From: an uncultured Alphaproteobacteria bacterium
Lineage (GTDB): Bacteria; Pseudomonadota; Alphaproteobacteria; Bin95
DNA: 36,200 nucleotides
Assembly (NCBI GenBank): GCA_938084065.1
Contig: CALKDI010000100.1
Location: forward strand, 1 to 36,200
Reading direction: 5' to 3'
Below the pieces are notes generated by a model. The model worked only from the letters and a program-made list of their open reading frames with translations. It did not search any database and was not told the DNA's origin. Positions within the stretch are counted from its first letter, which is position 1; every line of letters begins with the position of its first letter. Both the position numbers and the translations under genes were made by a program. Positions 9,283 through 19,250 of the stretch are shown piece by piece.

Positions 9283-11172
9283 CTATTCGCCGGCTGAAGC
9301 CTCCATCACCTTGGCCATGCGCTGGGCAAACGCGACGGGGTCGGGCAGGCTTTCGCCTTCGACAATCCGCGCCTGATCTAGCAGTAACCAGGCGTAATCC
9401 TCCATCCGGTCCACCGCATCTGGCCCAGCGTCGACGCTATCGGACAGCCGCTTGATCATGCTGTGACGCGGGTTCAGTTCCAGGATACGCGGCGCTTTAT
9501 CGACCTTTTGCCCGTGTTGGCGCATCAGGCGCTCCAGGTGCAGGTCCATATCGTTTTCATCCGCCACCAGACAGCAGGCGGAGTCGGTCAGACGGTCGGA
9601 GACGCGCACATCCTTTACCGCCTCGCCCAGCGCCAGCTTCACCGCTGCAATCAAGCCGCCGATAGCGCCCTCGGGCTCTTGGTCTTTTGGCCCGTCGGTA
9701 TCCGCGGCTTTGATCCCGGAGAGATCGGCACCAGCGCGGGTGACACTCTTCAGCGGCTTGCCTTCGTACTCCTGCACGGTAGAGGTCCAGAACTCGTCCA
9801 CCGGGTCGGTCAGCAGCAGCACCTCACCCCCCTTGGCGCGGAAGCCCTCCAGTTGTGGCGAGCGTTTCAGCGCCGCCAGATCGTCGCCGGCGATGGTGTA
9901 GATCGCGGTCTGGTTCTCCGCCATCCGCTCCACATATTGCGCCAGGCTGACCCAGCCATCGTCCTTTGTGGTGCGGAAGCGCGCCAGTTTCAGCAGCGCA
10001 TCTTTGTGGGCGGCGTCTTCGTAAAGGCCCTCTTTAACGACCGGCCCGAAATTCTCCCAAAAGTCGGCATAGGCCTCCGCGTCCTTATCCGCTTTCTGCT
10101 GCAACTCATTCATCACGCGGCGGGTCAAACCGTTGCGGATTTGGCGCAGAACGGGGTTGTTCTGCAACATCTCGCGACTGAGATTCAGCGGCAGGTCCTC
10201 CGAATCGACGACGCCGCGCAGGAAGCGCAGCCAGCCGGGCAGCAATTCCTCAACGCCCTCGGTGATGTAGACCCGGCGCACATACAGCTTCAGGCTGTTC
10301 TTGCGCTCTGGCTGAAACAGGTCGAACGGTTTTGAGCTCGGGATAAACAGCAGGCCGGTGTATTCGATATTGCCTTCTGCCCGCCAATGCAGCGTTGCCC
10401 ACGGATCATCCATGGCATGGCCGACATGGTGGTAGAATTCGTTGTACTGCTCCTCCGTGATCTCATTGCGGGGCCGTGCCCACAGAGCCGAGGCCGCATT
10501 CACCGTCTCCGGTTCCGCCTCCGCATCTTCGATCAGGGCCACCGGAATGGCGATATGGTCGGAGTATGTCTTGATGATCTGGCGCAGGCGGTGGGGCTCC
10601 AGCCACTCATCCTCACCCTCACGCAGGTGCATAGTGATGGTCGTACCGGTCGCTTCTCGCTCGGCCAACGCGACGGTGAACCGGCCGCGGCCATCAGATT
10701 CCCAGGAGTGGGCCACTGTCTCCCCCGCCTTGCGGCTGACCACGGTCACCCGTTCGGCTACCATGAAGGCAGAATAGAAGCCGACGCCGAACTGCCCGAT
10801 CAGTCCCGAATCCTGCTTGGCATCGCCGGAGAGCTGCTCGACGAACGCCGCCGTGCCAGAGCGCGCAATGGTGCCCAAATTCTCCACCAACTCCGTCCGG
10901 CTCATGCCGATGCCGTTGTCAGTCAAGGTTAGGGTGCGGGCGTCTTTATCCGGCTGCACCGTAATGCGAAAATCCGTCGCCTCGCCGGCCAAAGCGGCAT
11001 CGGTCAGTGCGCCGTAGCGCAGCTTGTCGCAAGCATCAGAGGCATTCGAGATCAACTCCCGCAGAAACACCTCCTTCTCGGAATACACCGAGTGCACCAT
11101 CAGATCGAGCAGTCGCCCGACTTCGGCTTGGAAGTCCATAGACTCAGATGATGACTCTGCGGTGGCATTCAT
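9283..11172 (-). CDS. htpG: Molecular chaperone HtpG (Hsp90)
   Basis: 'EVGRLLDLMVHSVYSEKEVFLRELISNASDACDKLRY', 'LTDNGIGMSRTELVENLGTIARSGT', 'GQFGVGFYSAFMVA'. Start chosen at MNATAES. Confidence 0.97.
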   Translation of the reverse strand: MNATAESSSESMDFQAEVGRLLDLMVHSVYSEKEVFLRELISNASDACDKLRYGALTDAALAGEATDFRITVQPDKDARTLTLTDNGIGMSRTELVENLGTIARSGTAAFVEQLSGDAKQDSGLIGQFGVGFYSAFMVAERVTVVSRKAGETVAHSWESDGRGRFTVALAEREATGTTITMHLREGEDEWLEPHRLRQIIKTYSDHIAIPVALIEDAEAEPETVNAASALWARPRNEITEEQYNEFYHHVGHAMDDPWATLHWRAEGNIEYTGLLFIPSSKPFDLFQPERKNSLKLYVRRVYITEGVEELLPGWLRFLRGVVDSEDLPLNLSREMLQNNPVLRQIRNGLTRRVMNELQQKADKDAEAYADFWENFGPVVKEGLYEDAAHKDALLKLARFRTTKDDGWVSLAQYVERMAENQTAIYTIAGDDLAALKRSPQLEGFRAKGGEVLLLTDPVDEFWTSTVQEYEGKPLKSVTRAGADLSGIKAADTDGPKDQEPEGAIGGLIAAVKLALGEAVKDVRVSDRLTDSACCLVADENDMDLHLERLMRQHGQKVDKAPRILELNPRHSMIKRLSDSVDAGPDAVDRMEDYAWLLLDQARIVEGESLPDPVAFAQRMAKVMEASAGE

Positions 11173-11213
11173 GATGCGGCTTCCCCTGCAATGAAAAATG
11201 GAATTGCACCGCA

Positions 11214-11241
11214 ATATGGTCAGATGTGAGGGGAGATCAAG
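11214..11241 (-). promoter_or_regulatory. Candidate heat-shock (RpoH-type) promoter for htpG
   Basis: Minus strand CTTGAT - 16 nt - CCATAT about 40 nt upstream of the htpG ATG; resembles the alphaproteobacterial RpoH pattern. Confidence 0.4.
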
Positions 11242-11391: not shown

Positions 11392-12009
11392 TCAATCTCC
11401 GTTACTGCCACGCAACCCGGCGCACAGCAGGTCCAGCGTCACGGCCAGGTCTGGCTCAACCCGGTCCAGTCCGTGTTGAGCGATCGCGAACGGGATGTGA
11501 AAGAATTTTGTGCCGAACTGTACGGCCCGCGCCGCTAGTGCCGGGTTGGCTACCCGGAACTCGCCATTCGCCACGCCCTCTTCGATCAAGGCGGTCAGGC
11601 GCACCAGGTAGCGTTGCACGTGTGCACCGACCACCGCCATGCCTTCGTCAGTTTCACAAATCATCTCCGACAGCTCGACGATCTTTGGCGCTTGCCGCAA
11701 TTCTTGCACGGTGTGAGCCACACCCTCGGTGATCGCGAACCGGATACGTGCCTCAGCCGACACCGATGGGTCGAGGCCGCGCTCAATGCAGGCATCCAAC
11801 TCGTCAAAGAAACTGCCGACCACCGCATGGCCAATGGCCTGCTTGTTGCGGAAATAGCGGTAGAGGTTACCGGCGGACATCTCGCACGCCTGGGCGATAT
11901 CGCCGATATTTGTTTTCGAATAGCCATAGTGGGCGAACAGCTCCGTAGACTGCCGCACAATCTGGTCGCGGGTTTCGTCCGCCGCCTCTGTTACCTGAAC
12001 GCGCACCAT
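11392..12009 (-). CDS. TetR/AcrR family transcriptional regulator
   Basis: 'RDQIVRQSTELFAHYGYSKTNIGDIAQACEMSAGNLYRYFRNKQAI' TetR HTH. ATG at 12009 preferred over the TTG at 12027. Confidence 0.93.
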   Translation of the reverse strand: MVRVQVTEAADETRDQIVRQSTELFAHYGYSKTNIGDIAQACEMSAGNLYRYFRNKQAIGHAVVGSFFDELDACIERGLDPSVSAEARIRFAITEGVAHTVQELRQAPKIVELSEMICETDEGMAVVGAHVQRYLVRLTALIEEGVANGEFRVANPALAARAVQFGTKFFHIPFAIAQHGLDRVEPDLAVTLDLLCAGLRGSNGD

Positions 12010-12020
12010 GTCCGCCCTGC

Positions 12021-13265
12021 TCACCAAAAATACGACAGTTTGAGCCGCACAAAGCTGTCACGCCGCAAATCATACTCTAAGTCGGAGCGCTGCGGGTTGA
12101 CGAAGACCTGCGCTTCAACCTCCGCCTTCCAACTGCCGAACACGCGCCGCTCAGCCTCCAACCGAACTGAGGTGCCGCCGCTCACCACGTCGGTAGTACC
12201 GATCAGCAGGACAGAGGTATCGCTCTCGTCGTTCAGCGCCAGGCGCATGCCGTAGATGGCGTCTTCCTCAAATGGCGTCAGTGCGGCGTCGCCGCGGCTA
12301 TCCCATGATCCTTCCAGGATCAGTCCCAGGTCGGCATTGGAATCCGCCACGCCAAACAGTGTGTATTCCAGACCGCCCGTGATCGCCACATAGTTGGTGG
12401 CCTCGCCATTGCGATCCAATTGGCCCTGCCGTCCAATCGCCTCCAGCTTCCACAAAGTTGCATCGCTGGTGTACTGGCCGTCAAAGCCGACCTGCGCAAT
12501 CGTGTCATAGACCGGTTTCAACGCGGTTGGCTGGCCCAGAGCGGTAAAGTTCGTTGGCTCGAACGCCGCATCGCGGCTGGTGCCATAAAAGCCGGAGATC
12601 CCGAAATCCACGTCGCCGATGACATGCGCCCAGCGCAGTGCGAAAGATGGCGCCCACTCGTCGCCATCGTTGCGAAAGTCCACAGCGCCCATATCCACCG
12701 GCAATTGCCCACGCAACCGCCCGTCCACGCCAGGAAAAGTCGGTTTGCGGAAATACGGCAGGTAATAGAGTGAGAACGCGCCAAAATCGCTGAAGCGCGT
12801 CGCCCGCAGCATCGGCTGACCGAGCTTATCCTCCAGGTCCAGACTTTCAACGCCGTCATCGCTGTTGATGATATCAACCAGATGCACCGCCTCGGTCTTG
12901 CCCCAGAAAACGAAATCCGCGCCTACCGTGAAGGCCCAGTTATCCGTGCGATAGTCCAGTTTGGCCTCGCGCACGTCAAAGTGGGTGCGGCGGTCGTCGG
13001 CGGCGTCCAACCGCAGGAACGGCGTTAGCTTGAACGCCAGATTACCATCCAGCCATTCGGCCAACAGCGTGGGCCGCAAGGCGACAGAGGCATCATGGTG
13101 GGCCTGACCGGCAAAGGCTGGTGATTCTGCAAACGCCGTCAGCTCCACCTCTGCCTGGCCAAAGAATTCCCAATGGCCTGGCACAAGCCCGCCCGTCGGT
13201 TTTTCAGCAGAAGCCGGCGCAGCGGCACACAGGGCCAGACTGGCGAGCGCAATTCTCCGCCACAT
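12021..13265 (-). CDS. Predicted outer-membrane beta-barrel/porin-like protein associated with RND system
   Basis: Signal peptide MWRRIALASLALCAAAPASA, alternating amphipathic strands, C-terminal aromatic 'RLKLSYFW'; 4 nt downstream of the RND gene. Confidence 0.65.
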   Translation of the reverse strand: MWRRIALASLALCAAAPASAEKPTGGLVPGHWEFFGQAEVELTAFAESPAFAGQAHHDASVALRPTLLAEWLDGNLAFKLTPFLRLDAADDRRTHFDVREAKLDYRTDNWAFTVGADFVFWGKTEAVHLVDIINSDDGVESLDLEDKLGQPMLRATRFSDFGAFSLYYLPYFRKPTFPGVDGRLRGQLPVDMGAVDFRNDGDEWAPSFALRWAHVIGDVDFGISGFYGTSRDAAFEPTNFTALGQPTALKPVYDTIAQVGFDGQYTSDATLWKLEAIGRQGQLDRNGEATNYVAITGGLEYTLFGVADSNADLGLILEGSWDSRGDAALTPFEEDAIYGMRLALNDESDTSVLLIGTTDVVSGGTSVRLEAERRVFGSWKAEVEAQVFVNPQRSDLEYDLRRDSFVRLKLSYFW

Positions 13266-13269
13266 CACC

Positions 13270-16200
13270 CTAACGCGCCATACGCGGCAGCACCTGGCTG
13301 TCGAAATCGCGCTCCTTCAGGCCAGTGCGGAATTCGTAATTCTCCCAGACCAGATCAGTGGATTTGCCGGTCTGCTGGTTTTCCATTCGCAGCACGTCAG
13401 CCCGCCAATACTGGTTCAGATACTGCTTATAGCCAGCGAAGGTCAGAGTCTTTTCCTGTTCACCGCGGCGATTGTAAAAGTCGATTTTGTATAGGCGATA
13501 ATGGTCCGTATCAATCCATCCGACCCGCTTAGAATAGCCAGACCGCGGGTTTTTTGGATAGCTCTCGACCACAAAGCAAGTCAGGCCTGCCTCACCCGGG
13601 CACGGCTCATCTTTGAGGTGTTTGTAGTCATAGTCACCAACCTCCTGACTGCCCAAATCCTCGTACGAGAACTCTGACGATACGAACTTGCCGGTGCGGT
13701 TCGATGAAGAAATGCGCTTCACCCGCTTGATGGCAGGCAAAAACAGCCATTGGTCATCATCTGCCGGCTCGATCTTGGAGTGGGTCAGCAAGGCAGTGCC
13801 ACGGATATCACGCGGTGTGCTGAAGACGATGATGCCCTTATCGCCATTTCCAGGAGACTGATCCTCCAAATTCAGCGACCGAAACTCCCGGCGGCTTTCG
13901 GTGCCGCGGGCATCGCGCAATACCATCGCGCCATTCACCGTCTGGTCGCCCCAGCCCAAATCGCGTTTGTCCGCCTCAACCGCAATCGCCAGGCCTTTTG
14001 CTTCAGCCGTCTGCGCTTCCGCTTTTCCGCTCAAGAGCGCAACGACAGCCGCAGTCACCAGTACGGCGACAGCCGCGGCACCTTTTTTCGCAACACCATT
14101 CGTCATCATCTTGGCTCCCGTCTTTCGTGACATGTTGTCGAGGGGGATTAGCAGCGCCGGTAGCAAGAAGAAGTCCGCTATCAGCGCAAAGGCAATCGTG
14201 ATCAGCGTCAGCTTGGCCAGATCGCCATTCACGGCAAAACCGCTGAACGACAGCACAAAGAAGCCAGCGACCAATGCCAGTGTTGTCACCAGCAGGGCCA
14301 TACCGACCCGGTCAAACACATAGCGCACCGAATCCTCTGGGGAGAGGCCTTTGCGCCGGGCAGTCTTGTACTTCATCAGGAAATGCACCGTGTCATCGAC
14401 GACAATGCCCAGCGTTGCCGCAATCACCACGGCAATCGCCAAGGTGACATAGCCAACGCTATAACCCCACAGGCCAAAGCCCATCAGCGCCGGCACCAGA
14501 TTCGGCACCAGAGAAATCAGGCCTATGCGCCAATCCCATAGCACCAGCAGAATCACGCCGGAAATCAGCACCAGCGCCACCACCGTGCCGCTCAACATTG
14601 CCCGCACATCCCGGTGAGAGATCAGCGAGAACACATAGCTGAGTCCCGTCGGCGTCGTCTGCAACTCAGGCGCGTTCGCGGCGAACCAAGCATCCGCTCG
14701 GGCCATGATGCCCCGCATTTGCTCCGTCGTCACAAACGGCATCGCCGCGTTGATCCGCAAGGCAGAGCGGGTGACGTTGATCTGGTCGGTTAAGTCCATG
14801 CCATAGTTCAGCGACAGCTCATAGAGGAACAGATATTGCGAGGCTTCTTCTCGCGTTTCTGGCAGCCGCAGATAGGCCGGGTCATCGCCATGCATGTTCA
14901 TGTTCAGGCGCTTGATTGTGTCGGTGACACTGCGGACATAGGTTACCTCCGGCTGTGCCCGCAACCAATCGGCAAAGGCGGCAACCTTGGCCAGATAGTC
15001 AGGATTGTTGATCCCCTGGTCCTCGCCGGAATCGACAGGCCATTCCAGCAGGTTCAATCCGGTCAGGTTCTCCTCAATAAAGTCCGTGTCGGTGCGGAAC
15101 TCATACCGTTCGTCGAAATAGCGGATGAAGTCGTCTTCGGCGACCAGTTTGGTCACACCAAAGCCCAGCCCGGCAACAACGAACAGCGAGACCGGCAGCA
15201 CCGCCTTGTGGTTCACCACAACGAACTCACCCAACGCCACCATCCACTTGCGCGCTGACGACGTATCCTGGCGCTGCTTCATCGGCAGGAAGGTGATCAT
15301 TGCCGGCAGTAGGGTCAGGTTCAGGAACCACGATACCAGCACGCCAAAACCGACCACATTACCCAACTCGCGGAAGGGCGGTGAGATCGAGAAGTTCAGC
15401 GAGAAAAAGCCGATGGCCGTCGTGATGCAGGCGACAGAGATTGCCGCCATATGCTCAGACAAGGCCCGCCGGGCCCATTCCTTGCGGTCTGCCGTCTCCG
15501 CCATCGTCTGGCGCACGCTAGCCAGCACATGCACCGCGCTCGCCACTGCCAGGATGGAGATCATCAGCGGTGCCAGGATGGTCACAGAGTTCAACGCCGT
15601 GCCGGTCCAGCCCAGCGAGGCCATGCCACAGAGCGCCGAAACCACGATCACAATCAAAGTCATCGCCACGCCAACCACACTGCGCAGCATCAGCCCGACA
15701 ATGAGCAGGATCGCGATAAACATCGCCGGCGTCAGGGTTGAGCCGTCTTCAGCACCCGAAACGGCAAACTGATTGTTGATCACCGTGCTGCCTGAAAGCT
15801 TTACGTCAACATTCGGGTAGGCTGCCTCAATGGCATCGCGCAGGACGAATGCCTCGCGCACCACCGTCGGCACTTCGACGGCTTTGTCGACTTGCGGCAG
15901 CTTGAACAGCACCTGAACCTGGGCCACATGGCCGGTGGCGGAGGTCATGCTGTTGACCAATTCCACCCGACTTGTCGCGATCTCCCGCGCAGCAGCCGCG
16001 GTCTCAGGCGATACAGCACTGGCATCAACCGAGGCCAGATCGCACGCGGCACCTGGCTGTTGGGCGCCATAGGGGAGGTCTGGCACCAGATCCCGCACCA
16101 GCATGTCGTCGCCCTCGGCCGACGTATTCTGGAAGTTGGTCAGCGAATTGACCCGGCGCACATAGGGCAATTGCCAGGCGCACTCGGTAATCCGGCCTTG

Positions 16201-16506
16201 CAGCGCCAGCATTTCCGGTGTGAAGACGTCGCCATCCTTTGGGACCAGCACGATCATCACATTATCGTCTTTGGAGAACTCCGCCTCGAAGGCATCCAGT
16301 GCAACGCGATCCGGATTTTCCTCGGAGAAAAACTGGCGCGCGCTGGGGTCAAAGCTGATCTTGGTAAGGCCGATAAACGCCACAGCTAACAGGGCCAACG
16401 TCACCACCGGCCAGACCCAGCGCATCGCCACAATCAGGCTGGCGAGGCGCTGAGCCTTGCCAGTTCCAACTGCCAGTGGCGCTTCAGTGTTGAGATCATC
16501 TGCCAT
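13270..16506 (-). CDS. RND/MMPL superfamily transporter fused to a C-terminal outer-membrane lipoprotein-sorting (LolA-like) domain
   Basis: 1078 aa. Residues ~1-799 have RND features ('AVVIAATLGIVVDDTVHFLMKYKTARRKG'). From M800 there is a signal-peptide-like segment, then 'IIVFSTPRDIRGTALLTHSKIEPADDDQWLFLPAIKRVKRISSSNRTGKFVSSEFSYEDL', typical of LolA-like lipoprotein-sorting proteins. Confidence 0.85.
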   Translation of the reverse strand: MADDLNTEAPLAVGTGKAQRLASLIVAMRWVWPVVTLALLAVAFIGLTKISFDPSARQFFSEENPDRVALDAFEAEFSKDDNVMIVLVPKDGDVFTPEMLALQGRITECAWQLPYVRRVNSLTNFQNTSAEGDDMLVRDLVPDLPYGAQQPGAACDLASVDASAVSPETAAAAREIATSRVELVNSMTSATGHVAQVQVLFKLPQVDKAVEVPTVVREAFVLRDAIEAAYPNVDVKLSGSTVINNQFAVSGAEDGSTLTPAMFIAILLIVGLMLRSVVGVAMTLIVIVVSALCGMASLGWTGTALNSVTILAPLMISILAVASAVHVLASVRQTMAETADRKEWARRALSEHMAAISVACITTAIGFFSLNFSISPPFRELGNVVGFGVLVSWFLNLTLLPAMITFLPMKQRQDTSSARKWMVALGEFVVVNHKAVLPVSLFVVAGLGFGVTKLVAEDDFIRYFDERYEFRTDTDFIEENLTGLNLLEWPVDSGEDQGINNPDYLAKVAAFADWLRAQPEVTYVRSVTDTIKRLNMNMHGDDPAYLRLPETREEASQYLFLYELSLNYGMDLTDQINVTRSALRINAAMPFVTTEQMRGIMARADAWFAANAPELQTTPTGLSYVFSLISHRDVRAMLSGTVVALVLISGVILLVLWDWRIGLISLVPNLVPALMGFGLWGYSVGYVTLAIAVVIAATLGIVVDDTVHFLMKYKTARRKGLSPEDSVRYVFDRVGMALLVTTLALVAGFFVLSFSGFAVNGDLAKLTLITIAFALIADFFLLPALLIPLDNMSRKTGAKMMTNGVAKKGAAAVAVLVTAAVVALLSGKAEAQTAEAKGLAIAVEADKRDLGWGDQTVNGAMVLRDARGTESRREFRSLNLEDQSPGNGDKGIIVFSTPRDIRGTALLTHSKIEPADDDQWLFLPAIKRVKRISSSNRTGKFVSSEFSYEDLGSQEVGDYDYKHLKDEPCPGEAGLTCFVVESYPKNPRSGYSKRVGWIDTDHYRLYKIDFYNRRGEQEKTLTFAGYKQYLNQYWRADVLRMENQQTGKSTDLVWENYEFRTGLKERDFDSQVLPRMAR

Positions 16507-16523: not shown

Positions 16524-16571
16524 GAATAGTGATTAATGAATTTTTTTGAAAATATTCATTAATCACTATTC
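16524..16571. promoter_or_regulatory. Perfect 18-bp inverted repeat (12-nt spacer), candidate operator
   Basis: GAATAGTGATTAATGAAT-ttttttgaaaat-ATTCATTAATCACTATTC, 18 bp upstream of the RND gene ATG. Confidence 0.85.
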
Positions 16572-16698: not shown

Positions 16699-17142
16699 TT
16701 ACACTACTTTCCAGTGCGCCAGCGTATAGGCCGGATCGTTGTCGCTGTGATGCTCAAACACCACCTCGACCTTGGAGCCGATCACCACGTCCTGGTGCGG
16801 ATCGCCCATCAGATTGCCGATCATCCGCACATTGCCGGCGCCAGCTAGTTCCACCAGCACAACGATATATGGCTCTTCTCGGGCGCGCAGGGCCGGATGC
16901 ACTGGGTGCCATGCACGCTCCCACGAGTAGATCGTGCCTTTGCCCTCGGCCTCGACCCAGCTGATGTCGAACGAATGGCACTTGTGGCAGATCCACTCCG
17001 GACCAAACTGGTGCGTGCCGCAGCCATTGCACTTCTGCACCATCAGCTTTTCGGCTTTCAGCCCCTCCCAATAGGGGGTGGAAAGACCGTCGCCCTCGGG
17101 TATCGGCGCTGGCAGGCCTTCTGGCAGATACGACTGGCTCAT
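16699..17142 (-). CDS. Zn-ribbon/OB-fold protein (DUF35 family), partner of thiolase-like protein
   Basis: 'VQKCNGCGTHQFGPEWICHKCHSFD' zinc ribbon followed by OB-fold. Start MSQSYLPEG overlaps the thiolase-like stop by 4 nt. Confidence 0.9.
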   Translation of the reverse strand: MSQSYLPEGLPAPIPEGDGLSTPYWEGLKAEKLMVQKCNGCGTHQFGPEWICHKCHSFDISWVEAEGKGTIYSWERAWHPVHPALRAREEPYIVVLVELAGAGNVRMIGNLMGDPHQDVVIGSKVEVVFEHHSDNDPAYTLAHWKVV

Positions 17143-18317
17143 AGGGTTGCCTCCGATCCGAATACGCAACTGGACACCGGCGTCACCATCGGCCCGGCAC
17201 AGACAAGAGAAACATCCACCTTTGGCACCTGCGCGGTGGAGGTGCCACGTATCTGCCGCACCGCCTCAATCTGCAATTCTAAGCCGTGCATGTAGCACTC
17301 CGCCAGATTGCCGCCGGATGTGTTGAGCGGCAGCTTGCCGCCGTCCGCCACCAGGTTTTCCAACTTCAAGAACTCGTTGGCTTCCTCGGCTTTGACCAGA
17401 TCGTGCTCAACCAGGCTCATCAGAACGCCGCCGGTGAAGTTCTCGTACGATTGCACCACATCCACATCGCCCGGCTTGATGCCCGCATTCTCATAGAGGC
17501 GCGGCGCGACACTGGTAAAGCTAGAGCTGGCATAGGTTGGCGCGTTGTGCGCCGGCGCTGCATTGCGATACTCAGAGCCCTGGGCCGCTCCCAGCAGATA
17601 GGTTGGCTTGTGCTGCATGTCCTTGGCCCGCTCTGCCGACACCAGGATTAGCGCCGCAGCGCCGTCATTCTCCAGGCAGCAATCGAACAGCCGGAAGGGC
17701 TCAACGATCCAGCGGGAGTTGTCGTACTTTTCCTCCGTCAGCGGACGGCCATGCATGACAGCGCGCGGGTTGGCCTGGGCATGATGATAGCTGGCCATCG
17801 ACAGCGCGCGCAGCGCCGGGCGCTCAATCTTGTGGTCGTGCATGAAGCGCATGGTCTTCATCGCAAACCGCTGTGCCGGCGAGAATAGGCCGTAGGGGAA
17901 GAGGTAGGCGTTATCGCCCTGCACCGTCTTCGCCGGAGCCGCTGCGCCAAAGCGCTGGAATTGCCCTTGCGCTAGGGATCGGAACACGACGACGCAATCG
18001 GCGTAGCCAGCGGCAATCGCCGCCGCCGCCGTGCCAACCGCAGCAGCGCCACCGCCCCCGCCGCCGCCCCATTGCATCACAGAATACTTCAGGTCCTTGA
18101 TGCCCAGCGCCGCCGACAAGCGCGAAGGCTCGTTGCGGTCGTTAGAGTAGGAGCAGAAGCCGTCGATTTCGCGGGCGTCGATGCCGGCGTCTTCCGCCGC
18201 CGCCAGGATAGCCATCAGCGCCAGCTTGAACTCGCTGTCGGGCGCTTGGCCGTGCTTATAATAGGTGGTCTCGCCTATGCCGGCGATGGCCACCTTGCCT
18301 CGAATTCCGTTGGTCAT
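17139..18317 (-). CDS. Thiolase-like / lipid-transfer (SCP-x/Ltp-type) family protein
   Basis: 'KVAIAGIGETTYYKHG', 'AAAAIAAGYADCVVVFRSLAQGQ', 'DVVQSYENFTGGVLMSLVEH', 'LPLNTSGGNLAECYMHGLELQIEAVRQIRG'. Confidence 0.88.
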   Translation of the reverse strand: MTNGIRGKVAIAGIGETTYYKHGQAPDSEFKLALMAILAAAEDAGIDAREIDGFCSYSNDRNEPSRLSAALGIKDLKYSVMQWGGGGGGGAAAVGTAAAAIAAGYADCVVVFRSLAQGQFQRFGAAAPAKTVQGDNAYLFPYGLFSPAQRFAMKTMRFMHDHKIERPALRALSMASYHHAQANPRAVMHGRPLTEEKYDNSRWIVEPFRLFDCCLENDGAAALILVSAERAKDMQHKPTYLLGAAQGSEYRNAAPAHNAPTYASSSFTSVAPRLYENAGIKPGDVDVVQSYENFTGGVLMSLVEHDLVKAEEANEFLKLENLVADGGKLPLNTSGGNLAECYMHGLELQIEAVRQIRGTSTAQVPKVDVSLVCAGPMVTPVSSCVFGSEATL

Positions 18318-18322
18318 TTGGG

Positions 18323-19132
18323 TTATGCTCCTATGAACTTGGCGTCGCGCTTTTCGCGGAAGGCGGCGACGCCTTCCTCATTGTCCTTGCTCAAGCCTGC
18401 CTTTTTCTGAAGGTCGGACTCCAGTTGCATCTGGTCAGCATAATTGTTTTCCAGGCTGGCCCAATACATCTGCCGGATCAGACCCAGCGCCATCGGTCCA
18501 TCAGCCAGCCGACGGGCGAACGCCAGCGCCTCATCCATGACCGCATTGTCCTCGACCGCCTTGTTGATCATGCCCCACTCCGCCGCTTTCTCCGCCGGCA
18601 GCCGCTCCGCCAGCATGGAGAGTTCCATGGCCCGGCTCATGCCGATCAACCGCGGCAGGATCCAGGACGAGCCGCCGTCCGGCACCAGGCCGATGCGGGC
18701 GAAGGCCTGCAAGAAGAAGCCAGACTTGGCCATCACTTTGAAATCACACGACAGCGCCAGGCTCATGCCGACACCGGCAGCGACCCCGTTGATCGCAGCA
18801 ACCGTCGGGATCGACAGTTCGCGCAGGCGGATCAGCGTCGGGTTGTACCATGACTCAAGCTCTGTCTGCGCCTCGCCCCGCGCCTCTGCCTCACGGTCGC
18901 GCGGCGGCTTATCTGGGTCGTTCAGGTTCGCCCCGGACGAAAACCCGCGGCCCGCACCTGTGATCACCAGGCAGCGGGCAGAGCGGTCAGCAATCGCCGC
19001 ATCCAGCTGATCAAGCGCGACGCTCATATCCTGCTTCAGCTTATAGCCAAAGGCGTTCAGCGCCTCCGGATGGTTCAGGGTCATTGTTGCAATGCCATTT
19101 TGGACATCAAGCAATACGCGGGAGCCGGACAT
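18323..19132 (-). CDS. Enoyl-CoA hydratase/isomerase family protein
   Basis: 'MTLNHPEALNAFGYKL', 'CLVITGAGRGFSSGANL', 'AAINGVAAGVGMSLALSCDF'; start MSGSRVLL. Confidence 0.93.
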   Translation of the reverse strand: MSGSRVLLDVQNGIATMTLNHPEALNAFGYKLKQDMSVALDQLDAAIADRSARCLVITGAGRGFSSGANLNDPDKPPRDREAEARGEAQTELESWYNPTLIRLRELSIPTVAAINGVAAGVGMSLALSCDFKVMAKSGFFLQAFARIGLVPDGGSSWILPRLIGMSRAMELSMLAERLPAEKAAEWGMINKAVEDNAVMDEALAFARRLADGPMALGLIRQMYWASLENNYADQMQLESDLQKKAGLSKDNEEGVAAFREKRDAKFIGA

Positions 19133-19250
19133 GGGCAGTTTCCTCTGGAGTTGATGGTCGTTGGCCAAAACTCTAACCGCCCAAAAGCAAAGCTGCCAGC
19201 CCCTCTCCATAAAGTGCTAGAATTTGCGGCACACAATTCGGCTGCTAGCA

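Follow-up and report, generated by a model that had tools for sequence, protein, structure and literature searches.

In the arrangement closest to the one described here, found in Vibrio and on Sulfitobacter plasmids, an MMPL pump, a LolA_like carrier and an outer-membrane barrel are encoded by separate genes of one operon, the pump and the carrier occupying two open reading frames that often overlap as ATGA. On the Sulfitobacter plasmids the adjacent pair is annotated as "MMPL family transporter" and "outer membrane lipoprotein-sorting protein". The RND fold is common to such pumps and to the HpnN, BstA and mycobacterial MmpL lipid transporters, and we know of no LolA_like fusion for any of the latter. 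A membrane protein joined to an exported one is familiar from the fbcH cytochrome b/c1 polyprotein of Bradyrhizobium, in which a polytopic membrane protein is linked to an exported protein via an internal signal peptide that is cut by signal peptidase.

Two experimental studies bear on the function of related systems. In the gammaproteobacterium Thalassolituus oleivorans, the pump TOL_3187 has been reported with MMPL and LolA-like domains and is up 42-fold on n-C28 alkane, and TOL_3188, a predicted porin adjoining it, was seen only on this alkane (PMC6304351). Its passages on TOL_3187 do not discuss the protein as a fusion (PMC6304351), and a search of the order around G399, covering 395 genomes, gave no fused gene. 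AmeABCD of Castellaniella defragrans combines an HAE3 RND pump, a LolA-superfamily periplasmic protein and an outer-membrane protein, and its deletion lowered growth and tolerance on monoterpenes; it is made up of four separate genes, with DUF1329/DUF1302 partners and the extra component AmeC (PMC6394551).

The locus studied here, in a window of 36,200 nucleotides (the whole stretch of DNA that was analysed), follows the same pump-carrier-barrel order as the separate-gene operons, but with pump and carrier in one open reading frame. The ORF at 13270-16506 on the minus strand encodes 1078 amino acids, as the first-pass annotation of this DNA had described, from an ATG start with zero internal stops, and it comprises in succession a 12-helix MMPL/HAE3-like RND pump, a complete predicted Sec signal peptide (M800-A831) and a LolA_like domain. 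The features of the operon are as follows.

16578-16551, minus strand: promoter-like TTGACT-16-AATATT (from the sequence)
16524-16571, minus strand: inverted repeat across the promoter-like site, probable TetR operator (22-bp arms)
14110-16506, minus strand: RND/MMPL (HAE3-like) pump part, residues 1-799 (Pfam MMPL, 12 hydropathy peaks, AF2 fold)
14115-14119, minus strand: internal Shine-Dalgarno-like GGGAG (sequence, duplex energy)
14014-14109, minus strand: embedded predicted Sec signal peptide, residues 800-831, MM...AEA before Q (small-x-Ala motif, AF2 low-confidence helix)
13273-14013, minus strand: mature LolA_like carrier domain, residues 832-1078 (PF17131; 3bk5 by sequence and fold)
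13270-13272, minus strand: stop codon of the fused ORF (sequence)
12021-13268, minus strand: outer-membrane beta-barrel gene with no Pfam family (AF2 model, Foldseek, neighbourhood in relatives)
11392-12027, minus strand: TetR-family regulator, final gene of the operon (PF00440, 8e-13)

The pump part matches Pfam MMPL over two stretches, above the cut-off (5e-23), and the HAE3 model TIGR00921 at 9e-39, short of that model's own cut-off. Its hydropathy plot shows 12 peaks, and Foldseek finds that its AF2 model resembles MmpL4, MmpL5 and HpnN, so that HpnN and MmpL are among its nearest solved structures. With MMPL domains, two six-helix halves and the RND fold, it belongs to the MMPL/HAE3-type RND transporters. 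More specific identities were rejected: the pump scores far under the NCBIfam cut-offs both for the hopanoid transporter HpnN (79 vs 752 and 44 vs 1100 bits) and for the sterol transporter BstA (18.5 vs 1400 bits). An AcrAB-TolC-type tripartite efflux pump was also discarded, as the operon has neither a membrane-fusion protein nor a TolC-type channel and its outer-membrane partner is an AlgE-like barrel.

The carrier matches PF17131 (LolA_like) over residues 889-1075 at 1e-55, with 188.6 bits against a cut-off of 30, and the C-terminal 279 amino acids searched alone give the same family at 8e-57. Its best solved relative by sequence is 3bk5 of Vibrio parahaemolyticus (1e-74), which the model of the domain also matches in fold (Foldseek TM 0.89). 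The carrier thus has both the gathering score and the fold of the LolA_like family, and the LolA-like part of the earlier reading stands; the canonical LolA family, however, is absent from the Pfam and NCBIfam matches of the fused protein. "LolA" is therefore to be taken as LolA-like, and nothing shows a lipoprotein cargo. An AmeABCD-type HAE3 cassette was likewise rejected: the first three kinds of component are present, but the carrier is mainly PF17131 (the DUF1329 match reaches 42 bits only) and the barrel is without a DUF1302 match. No AmeC-like gene was identified in the window operon.

Is the joining of the two genes real? The window genome is a 399-contig draft and separate pump and carrier genes are the rule, both of which would suit an assembly or sequencing artefact, either a frameshift or a missed stop. 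The stop-less fusion nevertheless occurs in ten further genomes (among them Neomegalonema-labelled MAGs and Limibaculum) at 59-67% identity, and these eleven genomes have diverged junctions with neither stop nor frameshift. Since further genomes carry the same fusion, an artefact is already refuted for the clade, and we regard it as scarcely credible for the window gene. A contig scan with one genome per species returned 80 relatives, nine of which are single open frames like that of the window (L032-L039 from Neomegalonema-labelled MAGs and L040 from Limibaculum sp. NKW23). The tenth, locus L196 of G1111, was found by searching at family level around Limibaculum, where the fused form was present in 4 of 298 sampled genomes. 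Exactly one PF17131 copy is present in the window genome and in each of the nine genomes behind L032-L040.

The fused genes form one clade with support of 1.0 in both the pump tree and the concatenated tree, which took in the ten fused genes known before L196; the carrier tree recovers the split too, but with negligible printed support. In some 80 other adjacent pump/carrier pairs, which range from Vibrio to Gemmatimonadetes, the two genes are separate. Furthermore, LolA_like copies were numerous in samples of 385 alphaproteobacterial genomes, 399 Pseudomonadota genomes and the 395 genomes of the order around G399, and no stop-less fusion beyond that of the window was found there, which rules out the fusion as a common arrangement. 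Hence, to the question raised at first pass of whether it is common or unique, the answer is neither: the ORF is a genuine, rare and clade-specific fusion of two genes that are adjacent elsewhere, often overlapping as ATGA. In four other loci (L129, L150, L171 and L172) pump and carrier share a frame split by one TAA or TAG, giving reported open frames of 1053-1107 amino acids with one stop inside the match; these are possible half-way states or read-through candidates. Limibaculum also has a second, unfused pump paralog (L195, 3704-6040; 52% identity), and the 10 kb examined there contained neither a carrier nor a barrel gene.

The probable origin of the fusion can be read from its unfused relatives. 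In Gemmatimonadetes, Latescibacterota, Binatia and Alphaproteobacteria the pump ends in ...LDRRKS-TGA or similar and the carrier begins inside that stop as ATGA, with the Shine-Dalgarno (SD) sequence AGGAGA lying inside the Arg-Arg codons of the pump end, 6 nt before the ATG. Fused L033-L040 and L196 retain the same layout with an SD-to-ATG spacing of 7, whereas the window gene and L032 have diverged further at the junction. Because of this difference in spacing, we infer that a net change of +1 nt at the ATGA stop/start overlap would have brought the carrier into frame with the pump and removed the stop. We appear to see a fused gene arising from an overlapping pair by a change of frame at the ATGA overlap, while constraint on the former start, ribosome-binding site and export signal is still visible.

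Several observations speak for that constraint. An ATG at the old carrier start is kept in all 11 fused genes, even though mean identity between the window and its fused homologs falls to 26% over residues 800-831, against 60% in the pump and 68% in the carrier. In the window, the GGGAG noted ahead of M800 is present (14119-14115), at a spacing of 5 nt rather than the 6 nt first given, and 8 nt ahead of the M801 ATG; its duplex energy of -6.6 is among the strongest 6% upstream of ATGs in the fused gene. Junction SD-duplex strength ranks high among the ATGs of its gene (combined p 0.004), and junction arginines are encoded by AGG or AGA in 10/14 cases vs 26/573 elsewhere in the same fused genes (Fisher p 2e-10; p 5e-5 with one gene per subclade), counts that leave out the window and L032, whose SD is built from other codons, and p-values that ignore shared ancestry except where subclades are stated. 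Unfused pumps with a downstream carrier show the excess likewise (38/71 vs 309/2358). It is absent from pumps that have no lolA nearby (8/47 vs 190/1647, p 0.17), and the nearest unfused paralog, the 52% Limibaculum pump with no adjoining carrier gene, has CGG CGC CGC at this spot. Codon choice therefore follows the ribosome-binding site and not the protein, and from their sequence context the AGG/AGA arginines mark a retained internal ribosome-binding site.

The persistence of the ATG and the SD, and the enrichment of rare AGG/AGA codons at the positions that form the SD, would also suit internal initiation as the main source of carrier, with read-through past the lost stop a neutral by-product. 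Indeed, by a rough estimate drift will often leave a short linker stop-free; selection for the fused product is therefore unproven, and the lack of new stops as evidence of such selection was set aside. However, several fused members have a weaker SD than unfused ATGA pairs do (about -5 vs a typical -7.4 kcal/mol), for which reason internal initiation may be minor, and with the stop gone each ribosome that completes the pump makes carrier too. We consider it quite improbable that internal initiation dominates.

What becomes of the carrier made by read-through depends on the segment between the two domains. The stretch from M800 to A831, recognised at first pass as resembling a signal peptide, reads as described, with a predicted AEA cleavage site after A831 and before Q832. 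In 11/11 fused genes the site carries Ala at -1 together with either Ala or Ser at -3, and the predicted mature start, QSAE/ETPEEKGL, agrees with unfused carriers. RND pumps have their C-terminus in the cytoplasm. Given such a cytoplasmic end, the Arg/Lys-rich linker and the hydrophobic segment after it, the predicted insertion is N-in/C-out with a periplasmic carrier, a topology that fits what the function of both parts requires. By sequence features alone, the gene has what marks an fbcH-type polyprotein: an internal signal peptide with a small-x-Ala site following a membrane protein with a cytoplasmic C-terminus. The likeness lies in this linkage; fbcH belongs to a respiratory complex with proven cleavage, whereas the window gene belongs to transport and its cleavage is predicted.

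An uncut signal peptide would instead form a thirteenth helix, leaving the carrier permanently on the pump and making loading intramolecular. The window segment is hydrophobic enough for this (KD19 2.25, with the pump helices at 1.7-2.7 and most relatives at 1.4-1.9), and since its length and hydrophobicity come close to those of a membrane helix, there is less certainty about cleavage here than for the relatives; conservation of the fusion within one clade is also in keeping with a tether. Yet in several relatives the segment is short and weakly hydrophobic (KD19 1.44-1.6), and the small-x-Ala site is kept in every fused gene while the remainder of the segment varies, indels included. The AF2 model of the full protein is confident for pump and carrier and drops below pLDDT 50 at 802-809 and 825-831, with a loose helix between; this pattern is as expected of a signal peptide rather than a packed thirteenth helix. 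The internal ribosome-binding site and ATG are retained, and the linker is so short that an attached carrier could presumably hardly reach the outer membrane. A permanent tether therefore seems unlikely to us.

From a read-through fusion, a tethered shuttle and a dual-product gene, the choices offered at first pass, the conserved in-frame fusion is thus borne out, and the conserved cleavage site and internal start favour a dual product over a tether; one gene probably yields two separate proteins. Ribosomes finishing the pump would run on through the cytoplasmic Arg/Lys-rich linker into the Sec signal peptide of the carrier, which would insert N-in/C-out after helix 12 and bring the LolA-like domain into the periplasm; there, signal peptidase I would cut after A831 and free it. 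The retained SD and ATG (M800/M801) may supply some additional free carrier. The pump would then load a hydrophobic, probably lipid-like molecule onto the carrier, the carrier would hand it over to the AlgE-like barrel, and the TetR regulator probably represses the operon. As a whole, we find this explanation, a processed polyprotein with a retained internal start, a reasonably probable one. A further-reaching reading, in which one ORF feeds two carrier pools (peptidase-released and internally initiated), co-translational processing replaces the stop codon, the pump:carrier dosage is fixed and the route carries lipid across the envelope, is put forward tentatively and strikes us as rather doubtful.

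The barrel completes the proposed route. Its 415-aa gene starts 1 nt past the fused stop and has no Pfam match, and its AlphaFold model (mean pLDDT 92.8) is an outer-membrane beta-barrel whose nearest solved folds by Foldseek are OmpM1, AlgE, OprD-family and other porins. The gene lies beside the pump/carrier genes in nearly all relatives examined. The adjacent barrel-like gene of the first reading is thus upheld by structure prediction and constant operon partnership, and the suggested trans-envelope path from pump to carrier to barrel for a hydrophobic molecule is reasonable. The fusion ties pump and LolA-like carrier together as partners in one route, and so supports this model for a widespread and barely studied envelope transport system. 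Within the fused clade TetR genes lie downstream; in several unfused loci they lie upstream. In the window, the promoter-like site ahead of the pump is overlapped by an almost perfect inverted repeat with 22-bp arms around a centre of 4 nt, and several fused relatives likewise have palindromes of the AATGAA/TTCATT type in their upstream regions; together these suggest that the regulator may control its own operon.

The operon may also have moved between lineages. The neighbouring htpG (window 9283-11214) shares 58-67% identity with its counterparts in the window's family relatives; of six fused-clade genomes searched, five gave no htpG match and the sixth gave a trace match. The relatives within the family have unfused pumps only, whose identity is at most about 43% over their length. 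This distribution hints at horizontal transfer.

It is tempting to consider what the system might carry. Upstream of the operon, at 16699-19210, lie ChsH2-like OB/zinc-ribbon, thiolase-like and enoyl-CoA hydratase genes, a set resembling those of steroid or acyl side-chain degradation. At L064 (5956-9537) a related RND pump shares one ORF with a CqsA/LqsA-type alpha-hydroxyketone autoinducer synthase (477.5 bits, cut-off 428); next to it are a second such synthase, scoring just under the cut-off, a histidine kinase and a LolA_like gene that stands alone. Apparently the same fusion recurs at L197 (G292:C86:20996-22489; 67%, open frame of 1207 amino acids). This suggests that such pumps may export long-chain signal lipids. 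Thalassolituus, AmeABCD, the upstream genes and the synthase fusion all point to lipid-like hydrophobes, and none identifies the substrate here. In addition, about 25 unfused MAG loci have an MPAB/Lcp (rubber oxygenase) family gene in the vicinity of the pump, as does L084 (4575-5825), where it is upstream.
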